64,000 bases of DNA, taken from contig NZ_PPDB01000001.1 in the NCBI RefSeq assembly GCF_002959855.1, positions 310,001-374,000 on the forward strand. Direction: 5' to 3'. The first letter of the stretch is position 1; each line of letters opens with the position of its first letter. The notes under the pieces were generated by a model. It was not told where the DNA came from. It searched no databases and saw only the letters and a program-made list of their open reading frames with translations. This document shows positions 45,372-54,883 of the stretch, piece after piece. Origin of the DNA: Veillonella denticariosi JCM 15641. Its GTDB lineage: Bacteria; Bacillota; Negativicutes; Veillonellales; Veillonellaceae. The translations under genes and the position numbers were made by a program.

Positions 45372-45468
45372 TATAGGAACATGGAATGCAGTATTGCCAG
45401 AGTATATATTCATTTTAATATATTTTAGTTATGAAACTTGGCGCATTAGGCGCCGGACGGAGGACTCT

Positions 45469-46731
45469 ATGAAAGTATGTGTCATCGGCAGTGGTGGCCG
45501 CGAGCATGCCTTGGCTTGGCGCCTCTCTATCAGCCCCAGTGTAACGAAGGTATACGCTGTTCCCGGCAGTGCGGCCATGTCCGGTTGTGCCGAGTTGGTA
45601 GGAATCGACTGGAAGCAAACAGAACACTTGATTCAGTTTCTGAAAGATAATCAGGTGGACCTTGTCGTCATTGGTCCTGAAGCCCCGCTTGTGGCAGGGC
45701 TTAGCGATAGTTTGTGCAGCGCAGGTATTCCCGTGTTCGGTCCGTCCAAGGCGGCGGCTCAACTGGAAGGTTCCAAGGTCTTTGCGAAGGAGCTGATGAA
45801 ACGCTATGATATTCCGACCGCTGCATATGGCGTATTTTCCGACGTTGAATCCGCAAAGTCATTTATTGATGATACGGGGGCGCCCATCGTAGTGAAGGCC
45901 GACGGTCTCGCTGCGGGCAAGGGCGTCGTTGTAGCCATGACCGTGGACGAAGCGTATGCAGCCGTGGAGGATATGCTCAGCGGTAATCGTTTCGGTGAGG
46001 CCGGGCATACCGTGGTTATAGAGGAATTCATGGTCGGTGAAGAGGCGAGCTTGCTCGCATTTGTGGACGGCGAGACGGTGGTTCCCATGATTGCATCTCA
46101 AGATCACAAGCGCATCTTTGACGGCGATAAAGGTCCTAATACAGGCGGTATGGGGACCTATGCTCCCGCTCCGGTTCTGACCGATGAACTTCGGGATGAG
46201 GCGATGCGGACAATTTTAAATCCCGTTGTAAAAGCATTGGCTGATGAAGGTATGCCGTATGTGGGATGTCTGTATGCGGGACTCATGATTACCGATGAAG
46301 GTCCGAAGGTGGTCGAGTTCAATGCGCGTTTCGGCGATCCTGAAACACAAGTGGTATTGCCTTTACTGGACAGCGATTTAGGCGAAATTATGATGTCCTG
46401 TGCCAAGGGTACATTGAAGGCGGAAGAGGTGCGGTGGAAACAATCATCCGCTGCCTGCGTCATCCTTGCATCGAAAGGCTATCCGGAAACATCTTCGAAA
46501 GGTGATGTGATTAAGGGGGATATCGAACCCTATGATACGACTATCGTATTCCATTCCGGTACAAAGCTCGTCGACCATCAGTATGTGACCGATGGCGGTC
46601 GCGTTCTGGGCGTCGTGGGACTCGGGAAGGATCTTCAGACGGCTCTGGACCGAGCCTATGGACGAATAGAGCATATTTCCTTTGACGGTATGCAATACCG
46701 TAAGGATATCGGTGCTAAAGCTTTCAAATAA
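45469..46731 (+). CDS. purD: phosphoribosylamine-glycine ligase
   Basis: GAR synthetase, an ATP-grasp enzyme of 420 residues. Seen: [15 protein letters not shown] at the start, [13 protein letters not shown] near 66, [24 protein letters not shown] near 142 (ATP-grasp loop), MGTYAPAPV and [20 protein letters not shown] near 280. The start is ATG 45469 behind CGGAGGA; a longer frame begins 25 codons earlier without an RBS. Last gene of the pur operon, 97 nt after purH, ending in a hairpin. Confidence 0.97.
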
Positions 46732-46836: not shown

Positions 46837-46864
46837 TTGTTTTATTTCTTATTTATGATATAAT
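46837..46864 (+). promoter_or_regulatory. menF leader promoter
   Basis: TTGTTT (46837-46842), 16 bp, TATAAT (46859-46864). The expected start near 46871 gives a leader of about 160 nt before menF. Confidence 0.65.
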
Positions 46865-46870
46865 GAAAAC

Positions 46871-46985
46871 GTGAAAGAGCCCGTCAACGTGCTAGGGCGT
46901 TAGGCTCATATCAAAAATGTAGAAACTTTTAACGATGACGCCTGACGTGTAAGAGGACTAAATCTTTTATACGTTAGGCGTTTTA
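46871..46985 (+). promoter_or_regulatory. menF leader RNA with competing antiterminator and terminator folds
   Basis: First stem: GAGCC (46877-46881) with GGCTC (46903-46907), plus AACG (46886) with CGTT (46898). Alternative: CGTTAGGC (46898-46905) can pair with GCCTGACG (46940-46947). Those bases are also the start of the terminator stem 46938-46955 with 46964-46981 (18 pairs including four G-U), followed by TTTATAT. Opening the first stem would free the antiterminator. The pairings are seen; sensing of a ligand, protein or translation is inferred. I recognise no known riboswitch class. Confidence 0.65.
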
Positions 46986-47032
46986 TATGATGAATATCTG
47001 ATTACATAAATAGCGATAAGCGATATACGATT

Positions 47033-48175
47033 ATGATATATAATAAAGAACCGTTGGAACTGAATAGCCCCGTAGCTTTTTGGCTCAATTTTCCGAATGA
47101 GGAACGCGTGTTTTGGGTGGATCGTCAAAGTGACCGTATCGTTGTCGGTGCCAAGCGCTTGGCGACGGTTCTCGATGACGAAGACCGTAAACGGTATGCC
47201 TATGTATTTTATGGGGATACTTTTTTTGATGCCTCGAATGATCCTAAATGGGAGGGGATGGGGCACGAGATGATTGCTTTCACCCATTACTATATTGTGG
47301 AAAACGGGGAATCTTTTTACCTATATGCGGGGGAACCGGCAGTTATCGAGGACGTACCGGTGCCGCGCGTACGTCATGAGTATGTGGAAACGAGTGATGA
47401 TAGAGCCGACTGGGACCGTTTGATGAATGCTATCGGTGAAAGCATTGCGCATGGAAAAACGACAAAGGTCGTTGCATCCCGCGAGGTTCAGTTTACGAGT
47501 CCGGAACCTTTTAATGTGGCAAGCATTTTGGCTAATTTGGCGGATAATAATCCAAATTGTTTTATTTTCGGGTATGAAAAGGATGGTCGCACATTTTTAG
47601 GCGCTTCGCCGGAGATTCTGGTGCGCCATCGAGGTAGCGAAATCTTGAGCTATGCGTTGGCCGGAACAGCGCCGAAGGATGGCCCAAATGCGTGGACAAA
47701 GGAACAGTTGCTTACAGATTCTAAGAATTTGCTTGAGCACAATATCGTACGGGACCGGATTCTGAATACCATGAAAGACATTACGCCTCATGTATCGGTA
47801 GGGGAAACGGGCATTATGGAGCTGGCTCATCTATACCACTTACGCACCATCATTACCGCTACAGATTCGACGAAGTCCTTGGTCGAATGGGCGAAATTGC
47901 TGCATCCTACACCGGCCCTCGGCGGTGAACCGCGGGAGCAGGCGCTTGCTCTGTTACAGAAATATGAAACCCATGAGCGAGGTATGTATGCGGCGCCATT
48001 CGGTTTTATGAAAGACATGGGGGATGGCATCGTCGTCGTGGCCATTCGGTCGGCTCTCGTTATAGGTAATGCCCTGTATGCCTACGCCGGTTGCGGTGTC
48101 GTAGGCGACTCCGATGCAGATGCGGAGTATGAGGAAACTAACAATAAAATGAGAACCATATTAGATGCATTATAA
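47033..48175 (+). CDS. menF: isochorismate synthase
   Basis: Chorismate to isochorismate, the first step of menaquinone synthesis. 380 residues, shorter than E. coli MenF. Seen: KVVASREVQF near residue 142 (the conserved Lys region), FLGASPEILVRHRG near 186, the SYALAGTAPKDG segment near 205, LMELAHLYHLRTIITA-type sequence near 265 (here IMELAHLYHLRT), LHPTPALGGEPREQAL near 293 and YAGCGVVGDSDADAEYEET near the end. There is no good Shine-Dalgarno before ATG 47033, which is odd for this window. First gene of the men operon. Confidence 0.94.
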   Translation: MIYNKEPLELNSPVAFWLNFPNEERVFWVDRQSDRIVVGAKRLATVLDDEDRKRYAYVFYGDTFFDASNDPKWEGMGHEMIAFTHYYIVENGESFYLYAGEPAVIEDVPVPRVRHEYVETSDDRADWDRLMNAIGESIAHGKTTKVVASREVQFTSPEPFNVASILANLADNNPNCFIFGYEKDGRTFLGASPEILVRHRGSEILSYALAGTAPKDGPNAWTKEQLLTDSKNLLEHNIVRDRILNTMKDITPHVSVGETGIMELAHLYHLRTIITATDSTKSLVEWAKLLHPTPALGGEPREQALALLQKYETHERGMYAAPFGFMKDMGDGIVVVAIRSALVIGNALYAYAGCGVVGDSDADAEYEETNNKMRTILDAL

Positions 48176-48275: not shown

Positions 48276-48340
48276 TTTGACTAATTTATAATGCATTTTT
48301 TGAACCACACCTTACCAAAGGAAAAGTGAAAGGAATCGAA

Positions 48341-50122
48341 ATGAACGAATATATTGCAGCCCTCGTAGACGAACTGCATCGACTCGGCGTACGGCATGTC
48401 GTATTTAGTCCGGGATCGCGTTCTACGACGATGGCCATGCTTTTTAAGGAGCATAAAGGCTTTGAAACATATATGAATATTGACGAACGGTCGGCTGCTT
48501 TTATGGCCTTAGGTATTGCAAAGGCTCATAAGAAGCCGGCTGTACTGGTGTGCACATCAGGTTCTGCGGTGGCTCATTATTTACCGGCTGTTCTGGAGGC
48601 TCAATATAGTGGCGTTCCGCTTATTATTTTGTCCGCCGATCGACCTCATACATTACAACATATGGGGGCTCCGCAGACGATAGACCAGCAAAAGCTTTTC
48701 GGTACGGCTGTCAATTATTATGAGGAACTATCTGTACCTCGTGAGGAACATTTCTATACGTATCCGCGTCAGGTGGCGCGCAAGGCGTGTATGAAAGCAA
48801 TGGACCTGAAGCGCGGCCCGGTACATATTAATGTACCTCTCTTTGAGCCGTTGGTACCTGATTTTGATAGAAAGCACTTTGAGGCGGGGCGCATGGAACA
48901 ATCGTTTTCACTGGTGACCGGTATGTTGCAGCCGAGTGCAATTCAGCCCGTTTACGAGGCGCTTTTGAACAAGAAGGTTATCGTCTTGGCAGGCCCGGCT
49001 TGGGGCCTTGACGAAGAAATGGCTATTTTGGAATTGGCGCATATGCTTAAAGCGCCTATTCTTGCAGATCCGCTATCAAATATGCGCCGCATCGATGATG
49101 AGCATATCATCACCTCTTATGATGCATTCTTGGCCGATGAAAATCGTCGTGATGCATTGCAACCGGATTGTATTTTACAAATCGGTCAGATGATTGTATC
49201 CAAGCGTGTTCAACAATGGATAGGGACTATGGACGAGACGACGATTATATCGGTGAGTCCTACTATGGATTATACGAATCCTATGGGAAATACGACCATG
49301 TATATTCAGTCGACAGCACAAGGTTTGATGAACGGCTTGAAGCGATATGTTGTTGAATTGCATTCTGTCGGTGCAGCGAATGCTACTGATATGACGCGTA
49401 TTTCGATCGGTGCAGCGAATACATTTACCGGGACAGAGAACATTGCTGATGGTTGCGATCAAACGTTTGATACCTCTATCGATGAGTACCTTGCTGCATG
49501 GATTGATACGGAATCATACAGTCGTAATCAATTGGATGCGGTGGCGAAGGAATCGGAATTATTCGAAGGTCGAACCATCTATATGTTACAACGATTCATG
49601 CCGAAGGACGGTCAAATCATGAGTGCCAACAGCATGAGCGTCCGCGATATGGATTACTTCTGGGCCGGTGGGCGCAGTGATGCGGATGTATACGGAAATC
49701 GCGGTACCAACGGAATCGACGGGACCGTGTCGACCGCATTAGGCCTGTCCACGAACGGAAAGACGACCGTATTACTGACGGGGGATTTGTCGTTCTTTCA
49801 CGATTTGAACGGTCTTGCCATCGCAAAGACACATGAGCTGAATCTCACCATCGTCCTTCATAACAACGATGGGGGCGGCATTTTCCAATACTTGCCCCAA
49901 AAAGGCACGGAGCATTTTGATTATTTATTTAACACGTCGCAAGGTATTGACTATAGTGGTCTTGCCACATTATACGGTGTTGATTATGTGCGCGTTCGGA
50001 ATAATGACGATTTAGAGGCGGCGTTCGCACAGTATATCGGTCAGTCGGGGGTACATATCATTGAAATTCCAACATCCAAGGAAGGAAGTCGAGAGTTGCA
50101 TAAGAAATATCGGATCCACTGA
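48341..50122 (+). CDS. menD: SEPHCHC synthase
   Basis: A thiamine diphosphate enzyme joining isochorismate and 2-oxoglutarate. 593 residues. Seen: VFSPGSRSTTMAMLF near residue 22, MNIDERSAAFMALGIAKAHKKPAVLVCTSGSAVAHYLPAVLEA near 50-90 (catalytic Glu region) and the C-terminal diphosphate-binding stretch LTGDLSFFHDLNGL followed by LHNNDGGGIFQYLPQKG. ATG 48341, behind AAAGGAATCG, is preferred to a GTG at 48326. Second gene of the operon, 1 nt before menH. Confidence 0.96.
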   Translation: MNEYIAALVDELHRLGVRHVVFSPGSRSTTMAMLFKEHKGFETYMNIDERSAAFMALGIAKAHKKPAVLVCTSGSAVAHYLPAVLEAQYSGVPLIILSADRPHTLQHMGAPQTIDQQKLFGTAVNYYEELSVPREEHFYTYPRQVARKACMKAMDLKRGPVHINVPLFEPLVPDFDRKHFEAGRMEQSFSLVTGMLQPSAIQPVYEALLNKKVIVLAGPAWGLDEEMAILELAHMLKAPILADPLSNMRRIDDEHIITSYDAFLADENRRDALQPDCILQIGQMIVSKRVQQWIGTMDETTIISVSPTMDYTNPMGNTTMYIQSTAQGLMNGLKRYVVELHSVGAANATDMTRISIGAANTFTGTENIADGCDQTFDTSIDEYLAAWIDTESYSRNQLDAVAKESELFEGRTIYMLQRFMPKDGQIMSANSMSVRDMDYFWAGGRSDADVYGNRGTNGIDGTVSTALGLSTNGKTTVLLTGDLSFFHDLNGLAIAKTHELNLTIVLHNNDGGGIFQYLPQKGTEHFDYLFNTSQGIDYSGLATLYGVDYVRVRNNDDLEAAFAQYIGQSGVHIIEIPTSKEGSRELHKKYRIH

Positions 50123-50123
50123 T

Positions 50124-50948
50124 ATGCAACGCATGTATATAGACTTAGGGTCCTATCGATACGGCTTGACTATTGTCGGCACCGGTGAGCCGCTGGTATG
50201 TCTTCACGGATTTTCCGAGTCCGGATATACATGGAACGGGATTACACTGCCGGGGTATCGCATGATTCGCATCGATACGATCGGTCACGGTGATTCTGAT
50301 GTTCCCGATGACGAGATGGCCTATACGATTCCCGTTATGCTGGAGGATTTGCATACGGTTCTGTATCATGTGGCCGGTGAAAGCTATCATCTGATGGGGT
50401 ACTCCATGGGGGCGAGATTAGCCTTGCTCTATACATTGCAATATGAGTCGGAGGTCAAACGCCTCATTTTAGAGAGCGGTTCCGTCGGCATTGCCGAGGA
50501 TTCTGGACGTGAGGCGCGAAGACGAACTGATGAAGAGTTGGCTAAACGTATTGAAACTCACGATGGGGCGTGGTTTGCGGAGCATTGGGCGCAAGCGCCG
50601 ATTTTTGCATCACAACAGCGACTTTCACAGAAGCAACGGGAACTCATATATCGTAGACGTGCACATAACAGTCCGAATGCGTTAGCCGCTACATTGCGTG
50701 GATCGGGACAAGGTGTCATGCCCTATGTGGGAGATGATTTGAAAAAATTATCCGTCTCCGGACTATATGTGAGTGGCGCGTTGGACATAAAATATACTAC
50801 AATAGGAAGAGATGGGTTCGGCACGATGTCGAACTTTCACCATGTCATCGTCGAAGGGGCGGGGCATAATGTGCACATAGAGCAGCCGCGCGCATTTGAG
50901 CAGGTGGTGCTGAATTTTTTAGATGAGAAAGGTTACATCCATGAGTAA
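50124..50948 (+). CDS. menH: SHCHC synthase, alpha/beta hydrolase fold
   Basis: Eliminates pyruvate from SEPHCHC to give SHCHC. 274 residues. Seen: [14 protein letters not shown] near residue 25 (oxyanion loop), [10 protein letters not shown] near 50, the nucleophile elbow [10 protein letters not shown] near 92 and a late [11 protein letters not shown] with the catalytic histidine. ATG 50124 directly follows the menD stop; a second ATG three codons on fits equally well, and no strong RBS decides. Overlaps menB by 8 nt. Confidence 0.9.
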
Positions 50949-51783
50949 ATTTGATTGGAAAGTACTAGATCGTAATTACGAAGACGTTATTTATGAGACT
51001 TATAACGGTATTGCAAAGATTACTATCAATCGTCCGCAGGTGCGCAACGCGTTCCGTCCGAAAACGGTTATGGAATTGATTGATGCGTTTACGGTGGCCC
51101 GTGAAGATAACGAAGTGGGCGTCATTGTATTGACAGGTGCAAACCACGGACAAGGGGAAGACAAAGAAGCGTTTTGCTCCGGTGGTGACCAAAGCGTGCG
51201 CGGTCACGGCGGTTATGTAGGTGAAGATAATGTGCCGCGCCTTAATGTTCTGGATCTGCAGCGTTTGATCCGCGTTATTCCTAAACCTGTTATCGCCATG
51301 GTAAACGGCTACGCTATCGGTGGCGGTCATGTATTGCATATCGTGTGCGACCTTACCATCGCCTCCGAAAATGCAAAGTTCGGACAGACTGGTCCTCGTG
51401 TAGGTTCTTTTGATGCCGGTTACGGTGCGGGCTATTTGGCGCGCATGATCGGTCATAAACGGGCCCGTGAAGTTTGGTTCCTCTGTCGTCAATACACGGC
51501 TGCACAGGCTTATGAAATGGGTATGGTCAACTGCGTTGTGCCGTTCGATAAACTCGAAGAAGAAACGGTCCAATGGTGTAGCGAAATCCTTGAATTATCT
51601 CCTATGGCGTTGCGTATGTTGAAGGGAGCCTTCAATGCGGATACGGACGGCCTTGCGGGCTTACAACAATTCGCAGGGGATGCGACGTTGATGTATTATA
51701 CTATCGATGAAGCTAAGGAAGGTCGCGATGCGTTTAAGGAAAAACGCAAACCTAATTTTAAACAATTTCCTAAGTTCCCTTAA
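50941..51783 (+). CDS. menB: 1,4-dihydroxy-2-naphthoyl-CoA synthase
   Basis: A crotonase-fold enzyme that cyclises O-succinylbenzoyl-CoA. 280 residues. Seen: [20 protein letters not shown] near residue 26, [19 protein letters not shown] near 78 (oxyanion hole and flexible loop), [22 protein letters not shown] near 119, [37 protein letters not shown] near 145 and a final [13 protein letters not shown] tail, all diagnostic of MenB. ATG 50941 follows AAAGG inside menH. Confidence 0.97.
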
Positions 51784-51872
51784 TGAAATAATGCATGAGG
51801 TGAGAGCCGTTCGGTATGAGGTGATATGTTTCGGCTCCCGCTGATGTGTTTTGCTGATACGATTCGCATAGA

Positions 51873-51900
51873 GCGCCTCCTTGTGGGGCGCCTTTCTTTT
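51873..51900 (+). terminator. weak terminator-like hairpin between menB and menE
   Basis: GCGCCTC pairs with GGGGCGC (one G-U) around a short loop, then CTTTCTTTT. menE starts 42 nt later, so this may only reduce read-through. Confidence 0.5.
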
Positions 51901-51941
51901 ACATATGGTTTTGCATTGATGATGTGATGAAAGGTAATATG

Positions 51942-53330
51942 ATGGAGTGGTTACGTTACGGTGCTCGGCACTATCCCAATCGCATATGTATGAATGGGTA
52001 TACCTACGAGGAGATATGCCGAGGGGTGATCTATGCAGCTCGTAGCCTGGAATCTCTAGATGCGTCGAGAATCGCTGTCTTATCCGATAATTCCGTGACG
52101 ATGGCAATCTATATTTTGGCGGCTATGCTGGCTCATAAAGAGGTCCTCTTATTGAATGTACATCTTAAGACGAACGAGATTGAGGCTCAACTGTCACAAC
52201 TAGGTGTTACGACTGTATTGCACAGCATTGAGCGACGTTATCAGGTGCCGGACTCCGCTATTTCTGTTGCGTTTGAATCGTGTGAAAGTATCATTTCAGC
52301 CCCTGTGATAGAGGATACGTTTGACTGGACCTTTAACGATATGGATGTTGCGGCCATTATGAATACGAGTGCCACGACGGGGCAGTTTAAGTCCGTTCCC
52401 TTGCGTTGGGGACAGATTCGTGCCCATGTAAAGGCGTCCCGATCTGTGTTAGGTGTGACCGATGAAGATAACTGGCTCATGGTGCTGCCGCTATTTCACG
52501 TAAGCGGCTTATCGATTCTGATGCGGTCCTTGTATAACGGCACGGCCGTTACGGTATTGCCGAAATATGATGAGGATAAGGTCCTTGATCTCATCAATCG
52601 TAATCGGATCAATATGATGTCATTGGTGCCTACCATTCTGACTCACTTGGAGCCGAGAATTCAACATCATAACTTACGCGTCATCTTACTGGGCGGTGAA
52701 TTTATTCCGCAGTCCCTTATTGAATCCTGCGTAAAAAAGAATTTGCCGATTTATAAGACCTACGGAATGACAGAAACTTTTAGTCAAAGTGTGACGTTTT
52801 CTGTGCTGGATCATCCTGATAAATCTGAGTCCGTGGGATTGCCGTTGCCGGGCATGACGGTACGCATTGTTGATGCCGATGAAGAGGGAATCGGTGAAAT
52901 TCATCTGAAAGGCTCTATGGTCATGAGCGGTTATATCAATCGTGAACCTATCGATGGTGATTTTAATACGGATGATATCGGCTATGTTGATGAGGACGGC
53001 TTTGTATATATCCTGAATCGACGTAAAGACCTCATCATTTCCGGCGGTGAAAATATTTATCCGAAAGAAATCGAGGACTTACTCTACACATTGGATGCCG
53101 TAAAAGAATGCGCCGTAGTACCTATGCCACATTCGAAATGGGGTCAGGTGCCTGCACTCTTCTTGGCTTTTAATGATAATCAGAACCTTGGAAAAGATGA
53201 GATACTTGCCTTTTTGGGAGACCGTTTAGCGAAATACAAGATTCCTCAATATGTGCAGGTGATGGATTCTTTACCGAGAAACGGAACGGGAAAGATTATG
53301 CGCAATACTCTTATTCCACGGGAGCGTTAA
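51942..53330 (+). CDS. menE: o-succinylbenzoate-CoA ligase
   Basis: An ANL-family adenylating enzyme of 462 residues that activates OSB to OSB-CoA. The P-loop is NTSATTGQFKSVPL near residue 145 (usual form TSGTTG). YKTYGMTETFSQSVTF follows near 275, then FNTDDIGYVDEDGF and RRKDLIISGGENIYPKEIE near 365, and the catalytic lysine in PRNGTGKIMRN at the end. Several ATGs lie close together (51927, 51939, 51942); the last is best placed behind AAAGG. Fourth men gene after a 158-nt gap that holds a hairpin. Confidence 0.93.
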   Translation: MEWLRYGARHYPNRICMNGYTYEEICRGVIYAARSLESLDASRIAVLSDNSVTMAIYILAAMLAHKEVLLLNVHLKTNEIEAQLSQLGVTTVLHSIERRYQVPDSAISVAFESCESIISAPVIEDTFDWTFNDMDVAAIMNTSATTGQFKSVPLRWGQIRAHVKASRSVLGVTDEDNWLMVLPLFHVSGLSILMRSLYNGTAVTVLPKYDEDKVLDLINRNRINMMSLVPTILTHLEPRIQHHNLRVILLGGEFIPQSLIESCVKKNLPIYKTYGMTETFSQSVTFSVLDHPDKSESVGLPLPGMTVRIVDADEEGIGEIHLKGSMVMSGYINREPIDGDFNTDDIGYVDEDGFVYILNRRKDLIISGGENIYPKEIEDLLYTLDAVKECAVVPMPHSKWGQVPALFLAFNDNQNLGKDEILAFLGDRLAKYKIPQYVQVMDSLPRNGTGKIMRNTLIPRER

Positions 53331-53357
53331 TTTATGTAGGTATGTAGTGAGGTGCTT

Positions 53358-54509
53358 ATGAATGATATATTAAACTTTAAAAGTATTACTACTTACCGAT
53401 TGCGAATGCCTTTGAAATTTACTTTTAAGACGGCGAAGGGAGAGGTGCGTGATCGAGAAACGATAGTGGTTCGTATCGAAGATCAGCAGGGCTATGTAGG
53501 ATATGGAGAGTGCGTAGCTTTCACGACCCCTTTTTATACGGTGGAAACGGTGGACTCCTGTTGGCGCACCATAGTCGATGACTATGTGTTCAACCTGCGT
53601 CTCATGCGGCCGGCCAAGTTGATGACCTATATTCGGCAATTGCAGTTTTGGATGAAGCGGGACGGCATGACCATGGCTATCGCGGCCCTTGAAAATGCGC
53701 TCATCAATCTGCATTGTGAGCGAATCGGTGTCAATTCCGTATCGTATATTATGGATCAACCGCTATGCGATACTATACAGAGCGGTCTCGTCATTGGAGA
53801 TATGCCGATGGAGGGGCTTTTACCTACGGTGGAACGATTTGTTGCAACCGGCTGCAATCGCATTAAGGTGAAGGTAAATCCCGTAGATGGTTATGAGCGT
53901 ATGGCTCGAATACGTGACGCATACCCCGATTTGGTGCTCGCAGCCGATGCGAATCAGAGTTATACCTATGATGAAATTGACAAGGTGCGGCAGTATGATG
54001 AGTTGGGCCTTACCTGTATCGAGGAACCCTTTGCCATCGCGTCGCTAGAGTCTTACCGGGACTGGAAATGGAAACGGTTCAATTCGGATGGCTGGCACGT
54101 TATGACGCCTATCTGTCTGGATGAATCGATTTTGGGCTATGATGATTTGTCCTATGCCATTGAATTCGGACTCATAGATGTGCTCAATGTGAAAGTAGGG
54201 CGTATGGGCGGTCTTGTACCGACAAAGGCGGCCATCAATCTGTGTCGGGAGCGTCATATTCCGTATTGGATCGGCAGTATGATGGAATCAGGTATCTCCA
54301 AGATGCTTCATGTACAATTGGCGGCTCTCGGGGATTCATATATGGCGGGGGATTTATCCGACTCGTCCCGATACTTTGAAAGGGATCTTATCTATCCCGA
54401 CTTATCTTTTAGAGATGGCGTTATGAGTGTTCCTGACGGAGACGGCTTAGGTGTGACTGTGTTTGATGATCGCATTGAAGAATATTGTGTGGAGAGACGA
54501 AGATTATGA
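53358..54509 (+). CDS. menC: o-succinylbenzoate synthase
   Basis: An enolase-superfamily dehydratase making OSB from SHCHC. 383 residues. Seen: an N-terminal capping domain (RLRMPLKFTFKTAKGEVRDRETIVVRI), the catalytic KxK in CNRIKVKVNP near residue 172, metal ligands in LAADANQSY near 195, CIEEPF near 221 and CLDES near 255, and LNVKVGRMGGL with the second catalytic Lys near 280. ATG 53358 follows GAGGTG. Its stop overlaps the start of the thioesterase gene (ATGA). Confidence 0.94.
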   Translation: MNDILNFKSITTYRLRMPLKFTFKTAKGEVRDRETIVVRIEDQQGYVGYGECVAFTTPFYTVETVDSCWRTIVDDYVFNLRLMRPAKLMTYIRQLQFWMKRDGMTMAIAALENALINLHCERIGVNSVSYIMDQPLCDTIQSGLVIGDMPMEGLLPTVERFVATGCNRIKVKVNPVDGYERMARIRDAYPDLVLAADANQSYTYDEIDKVRQYDELGLTCIEEPFAIASLESYRDWKWKRFNSDGWHVMTPICLDESILGYDDLSYAIEFGLIDVLNVKVGRMGGLVPTKAAINLCRERHIPYWIGSMMESGISKMLHVQLAALGDSYMAGDLSDSSRYFERDLIYPDLSFRDGVMSVPDGDGLGVTVFDDRIEEYCVERRRL

Positions 54510-54883
54510 CATTAATAGATTCCTTACAAATTGATAAACCTCATATGACAAGTGATACCACATGTGAGGCGGTTATGCATTTGGGCAGCTTTCACAGTCA
54601 ACTGCAAGGATATTTAAACGGTGGTGCTACATTGGCGTTCGCGGAAATCGTAGCCGGCATGATGACGAATGAACTCATAGATGAAAGTAAATTCGGTGTG
54701 GGGCAATCCGTTACGGCGAATCATTTACGCCCTATGAAATGTGAAGGTGAGTTGACGGCCCGCGGCACATTGCTTGTGAAGGGGAAGATGTCACATGTAT
54801 GGCGTTTCGATATGCTGGATGACCAGGAGCGCCTCATATCTCAGGTGACGGTTACCTTGGCCGTTGTCAATTTTGAACGATAA
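54506..54883 (+). CDS. menI: hot-dog thioesterase, probable DHNA-CoA thioesterase
   Basis: A PaaI-type hot-dog fold protein of 125 residues. LNGGATLAFAEIVAGMM near residue 47 holds the acidic catalytic residue, GVGQSVTANHLRPMKCEGELTARGTLL near 70 is the second family block. Position as last gene of men operon, in ATGA overlap with menC, points to hydrolysis of 1,4-dihydroxy-2-naphthoyl-CoA (MenI). The family alone would not fix the substrate. Later steps (menA, menG/ubiE) are not in the window. Confidence 0.85.
   Translation: MTLIDSLQIDKPHMTSDTTCEAVMHLGSFHSQLQGYLNGGATLAFAEIVAGMMTNELIDESKFGVGQSVTANHLRPMKCEGELTARGTLLVKGKMSHVWRFDMLDDQERLISQVTVTLAVVNFER

Follow-up and report, generated by a model that had tools for sequence, protein, structure and literature searches.

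What is the structured RNA that lies in front of the menaquinone genes in the window, the 64,000-nt stretch of Veillonella denticariosi JCM 15641 DNA analyzed here, and does it control them? On the forward strand, purD (45394 to 46731) precedes menF (47033 to 48175), which encodes isochorismate synthase and is the first gene of the men operon; menD, a menH-like gene, menB, menE, menC, and a thioesterase gene follow (48326 to 54883), their names resting on sequence recognition. Between purD and menF we read a promoter at 46837 to 46864 (TTGTTT at 46837 to 46842, 16-nt spacing, and the extended −10 element TGATATAAT at 46856 to 46864), which a strict consensus scan does not list and whose TATAAT recurs in every men leader as well as in V. 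atypica. It is followed on the same strand by an RNA that matches a covariance model and spans 46871 to 46985, its start being predicted about 7 nt past the −10 element. The RNA ends in an intrinsic terminator-like hairpin (46937 to 46985) with a gap of 47 nt to menF, and a terminator standing between promoter and gene is one of the features of a transcription attenuator.

A sequence-only reading of this leader had proposed three mutually exclusive stems, namely, a 5′ hairpin, an 8-bp antiterminator pairing 46898 to 46905 with 46940 to 46947, and a terminator of 18 pairs with a U tail, and folding recovers all of them. The 5′ hairpin (46877 to 46907) is built from GAGCC/GGCUC plus AACG/CGUU. 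The alternative, or antiterminator, helix has its 5′ strand at 46898 to 46909 and its 3′ strand at 46935 to 46947, the latter overlapping the 5′ arm of the terminator; to its core (CGUUAGGC with GCCUGACG) are added four more pairs between 46906 to 46909 and 46935 to 46938, with C46939 bulged, giving 12 pairs in total. The terminator stem is real and in the best fold is even one pair longer than proposed (19 pairs, 46937 to 46955 with 46964 to 46982, closing an 8-nt loop), whereas its tail is short, UUUU and then AUAU, which is weaker than an ideal U tract; a simple consensus scan for terminators does not score it. The 161-nt fold has a free energy of −47.4 kcal/mol versus −29.1 ± 3.65 for shuffled sequences (z = −5.0), and folds of the growing transcript pass in order from the 5′ hairpin (−11.9) to the antiterminator (−21.9 at 46955 to 46960) and then to the terminator. 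The full leader folds into the terminator form at −40.3, compared with −29.8 when the antiterminator is enforced. That the RNA belongs to no recognized class also held: Rfam scans of the whole window, at gathering and at permissive thresholds, returned no matching family and chance hits only.

The RNA is, however, not peculiar to the men operon. Searching the genus at the DNA level revealed it before menF in most species, together with several further copies per genome, and a covariance model, R1, was built from 26 copies; the window copy (G000:C1:356866-356982), itself part of the training set, matches it with 93.5 bits (E = 3e-18). With this model the RNA, of about 115 nt, was matched in 13 of the 14 genomes of the genus, while the sister genus g3, whose records are other Veillonella species, carries 25 to 39 copies per genome. 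In a search of 300 genomes of the class, the only matches outside Veillonellaceae came from two genomes belonging to the same order, and one of these was marginal. Copies also occur near unrelated genes, in the neighborhoods of deoB, leuA, aroF, and hisZ. A search of plasmids with one toxin-linked module gave no match, and a search of phages with it gave a single 47-nt match in a Brevibacillus phage.

What many of these copies share is a neighbor. At 47 of 75 copies, we found a convergent open reading frame of 22 to 33 hydrophobic amino acids with a GGAGG-type ribosome site, which lies on the opposite strand, points at the RNA, and ends 2 to 37 nt past its terminator. The 75 copies, picked by similarity and availability, are not a random sample, and the related ones among them cannot count as independent; the same test is positive in 61 of 20,000 random segments (0.3%) and on the upstream side of 1 of the 75 copies. 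Four of eight such peptides score above the Pfam gathering cut-off for Hol_Tox (PF16935, putative holin-like toxins; E = 2e-9 to 2e-7), one of them from this genome (G000:C3:407k), two score less, and the remaining two give no hit, so that some toxin subfamilies lie under the cut-off. The toxin mRNA carries at its 5′ end, in the same sense, the GAGNC...ACGUG...GUUAGG element that is also found in the RNA, and in the window copy the 5′ strand of the alternative helix mimics the toxin-leader motif GUUAGGYUCAUC. In all 46 toxin leaders folded, the ribosome site is paired. A −10 element stands just 5′ of the RNA in the copies inspected, and in toxin-linked copies the terminator is common to the RNA and to the convergent toxin mRNA, across which, by geometry, the two transcripts overlap. 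We do not rely on the pairing between antitoxin arm and toxin leader as proof of recognition in trans, the difference between cognate and swapped pairs being slight (−12.3 versus −11.8, reached in about 1% of permutations). We likewise set aside a purely palindromic mobile repeat as an explanation for the family: all inspected copies come with a promoter-like −10 and have retained the terminator, and a toxin open reading frame is usually there too.

This anatomy recalls par (Fst/RNA II) of the Enterococcus plasmid pAD1 and its chromosomal relatives, a type I toxin-antitoxin system with convergent promoters, a shared bidirectional terminator, repeats in both RNAs, and a hidden toxin ribosome site (PMC7472228). 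The Veillonella modules resemble it in the convergent promoters, the small hydrophobic peptide, the short RNA antitoxin, the shared bidirectional terminator, the repeats common to both RNAs, and the ribosome site folded away in the toxin leader, and it is for the promoters, terminator, repeats, and hidden site that we read the RNA as an antitoxin. They differ from it in that the peptide, of 22 to 33 residues, matches Hol_Tox, in that the repeats are inverted in the DNA, which gives the two RNAs a 5′ element in common, where par/Fst has complementary direct repeats, in an antitoxin of about 115 nt compared with about 40, and in occurring as dozens of chromosomal copies, of which the men copy has no toxin. 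The Pfam entry itself names the peptide alone and not an RNA, and in the open-access literature searched we found no type I toxin-antitoxin modules in Veillonella. The family has type I toxin-antitoxin anatomy, with the RNA as the probable antitoxin. In complete modules, two convergent promoters would make a short toxin mRNA and an antitoxin RNA, ending in a common bidirectional terminator that would give them complementary 3′ ends; folding of the toxin leader would sequester the ribosome site, and the antitoxin would silence the mRNA by pairing. We infer that the peptide is toxic and that the RNA silences its mRNA. As a separate observation, at the copy before deoB the toxin persists in one species (L022) and has been lost in two others (L018 and L030), L030 retaining a relic of the toxin promoter; such a relic is also present in L026.

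How does the men copy relate to these modules? We located menF in each of the family's 28 genomes. Ten genomes of Veillonella have the RNA between purD and menF, purD being the upstream neighbor in all RNA-bearing men loci, and in none of the 10 is there a convergent toxin or toxin remnant between the terminator and menF. The other genera of the family lack the RNA ahead of menF, as do the genomes G001, G003, and G006, where a promoter-like sequence, recognized by eye, precedes menF without it. The men copies form one clade nested among toxin-linked copies (support 0.81; the sequences are short); judged from these sequences, the men copy arose once. Across five representative genomes, identity is 84 to 89% in the RNA stems, 90% in the menF coding sequence, and 67 to 73% in the loop and spacers.

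The sequence-only reading had regarded the alternative pairing as the mark of a riboswitch or protein-controlled attenuator and had put forward covariation in relatives as a check. For the terminator this check is positive, with four pairs changed on both sides (16 cells; 0 of 500 shuffles; 26 related copies), whereas the antiterminator shows no compensatory change among the 26 copies, its pairs being invariant, wobble, or broken (7 of 208 cells); the 5′ hairpin is nearly invariant, and covariation speaks neither for nor against it. In the men clade, G004, G005, and G011 have both terminator arms changed together (AAUAUG/CAUAUU), and the alternative helix is absent from their partial fold. Partial folds contain it in 40 of 46 toxin-linked, 20 of 22 orphan, and 4 of 5 men copies. 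The helix arises from the design of the family, in which the sequence of the terminator 3′ arm recurs in the 5′ element. Being equally frequent in toxin-linked copies and uncompensated, it is a family trait and gives no evidence of men-specific sensing, and more generally the presence of alternative stems in a leader does not in itself count as evidence for a riboswitch.

We therefore consider it likely, with a probability of roughly 70%, that the leader is a toxin-less orphan antitoxin RNA of a Veillonellaceae-specific family that now probably serves as a transcription attenuator of the men operon. In the ancestor of a Veillonella subclade, one antitoxin copy would have come to separate menF from the men promoter, by a presumed route of which no toxin remnant is left. 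A consensus scan of the 41 to 48 nt between terminator and menF found no −35/−10 pair; in the absence of a recognizable promoter there, transcripts that start at the visible promoter can reach menF only by reading through the terminator, and attenuation in cis is the most likely consequence. With the terminator in the only visible path, read-through would set men expression, and the RNA probably acts as a brake on the operon, as its sequence and position suggest. That V. atypica has lost the terminator half but still has the promoter fits this reading. We infer both efficient termination and the retention of attenuation as a means of controlling men. Of the attenuator originally proposed, then, the conserved structured leader between promoter and menF stands, in 10 genomes, and the men-specific sensing lacks support.

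A ligand-binding riboswitch or protein-controlled attenuator dedicated to menaquinone synthesis would account for the position before menF, for the three alternative stems, and for their switch-like order in growing-transcript folds. As in attenuators and riboswitches generally, a terminator and a competing helix lie between promoter and gene; unlike in those, the competing helix is common to toxin-linked copies, and we recognized no ligand, upstream open reading frame, or protein site. The same RNA and helix lie beside toxin genes and unrelated genes in many copies, the helix lacks compensatory change, and menF of the other genera of the family does without such a leader. This interpretation, with which the leader was first described, we consider very improbable, and we rejected it on account of the multi-copy linkage to toxins: the men RNA is one copy of a family whose other members are convergent to holin-like toxin genes. 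Alternatively, the men RNA may have been kept to silence toxin mRNAs elsewhere in the genome, its effect on menF being incidental. Both its 5′ element and its terminator arm, which are conserved, correspond to the toxin-leader motif, and this genome has at least two toxin-linked copies (L112 and L113), but the toxins of both have antitoxins of their own, the conservation fits either role, and in the men copy of this genome UCAUCUC, complementary to the toxin ribosome sites, is altered to UCAUAUC, so that we deem such a role in trans unlikely.

It is also conceivable that the RNA is a decayed module, a passenger in the men leader with no kept function, given that toxin loss is common at other copies (those near deoB in L018 and L030, and the promoter relics of L026 and L030) and that V. 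atypica has deleted half of its men RNA, where the promoter and a hairpin relic are kept and the linker and terminator are gone. Against this, conservation of the men stems is about equal to that of coding sequence, and in the 10 RNA-bearing genomes compensatory changes have repaired the terminator, which makes a mere passenger distinctly unlikely. Finally, menF might be transcribed mainly from a second promoter of leaderless type between terminator and ATG, with the RNA as a separate small-RNA gene. In the RNA-bearing clade, menF has no visible Shine-Dalgarno sequence (window 47010 to 47033; men loci L121 to L131), and AGCGATATAC is conserved just 5′ of its ATG; in the V. caviae-type genome G003 (L132), a TATAAT found by eye 5 nt before the menF start codon suggests a leaderless transcript. 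However, merely 41 to 48 nt are available, these contain no discernible −35/−10 pair, and AGCGATATAC is poor as a −10 element, and we regard a second promoter as clearly improbable. Within the attenuator reading, free toxin mRNAs might, through their leader motif GUUAGGYUCAUC, pair with the terminator 5′ arm of the nascent men leader and prevent termination, in which case menaquinone synthesis would go up when antitoxin is short; we consider this addition a long shot.

The men leader is probably an instance in which an antitoxin RNA has survived the loss of its toxin and has been turned into a cis-acting part of a core metabolic operon, and it comes from an RNA family unmatched in Rfam whose predicted type I toxin-antitoxin modules are very abundant in Veillonella. 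V. parvula SKV38 is naturally competent and genetically tractable (PMC5397411) and carries both men-type and toxin-linked loci, and the idea is therefore directly testable in that strain.

Some further copies deserve mention. A divergent set of the same RNA (24 to 40 bits) is found at L167:5477-5588 in the V. infantium-type genome (G005:C7), similarly in L168 and L172, and at G000:C3:406566-406679; five copies are clustered inside 10 kb, in the midst of an array of paralogous genes for exported proteins, and the divergent RNA at L167:5477 is followed by a convergent Hol_Tox-like peptide (MSDYEIIMLLLQVLAVVIAFGALIALICLTKSK). In the sister genus g3, tandem toxin-antitoxin modules are spaced about 490 to 690 bp apart (L081 and L083), and at L086:5948, L087:2017, L089, and L084:2500, a palindromic repeat (GGAACGC...TTAGG...GGCGTTCC) lies beside toxin promoters or replaces them.
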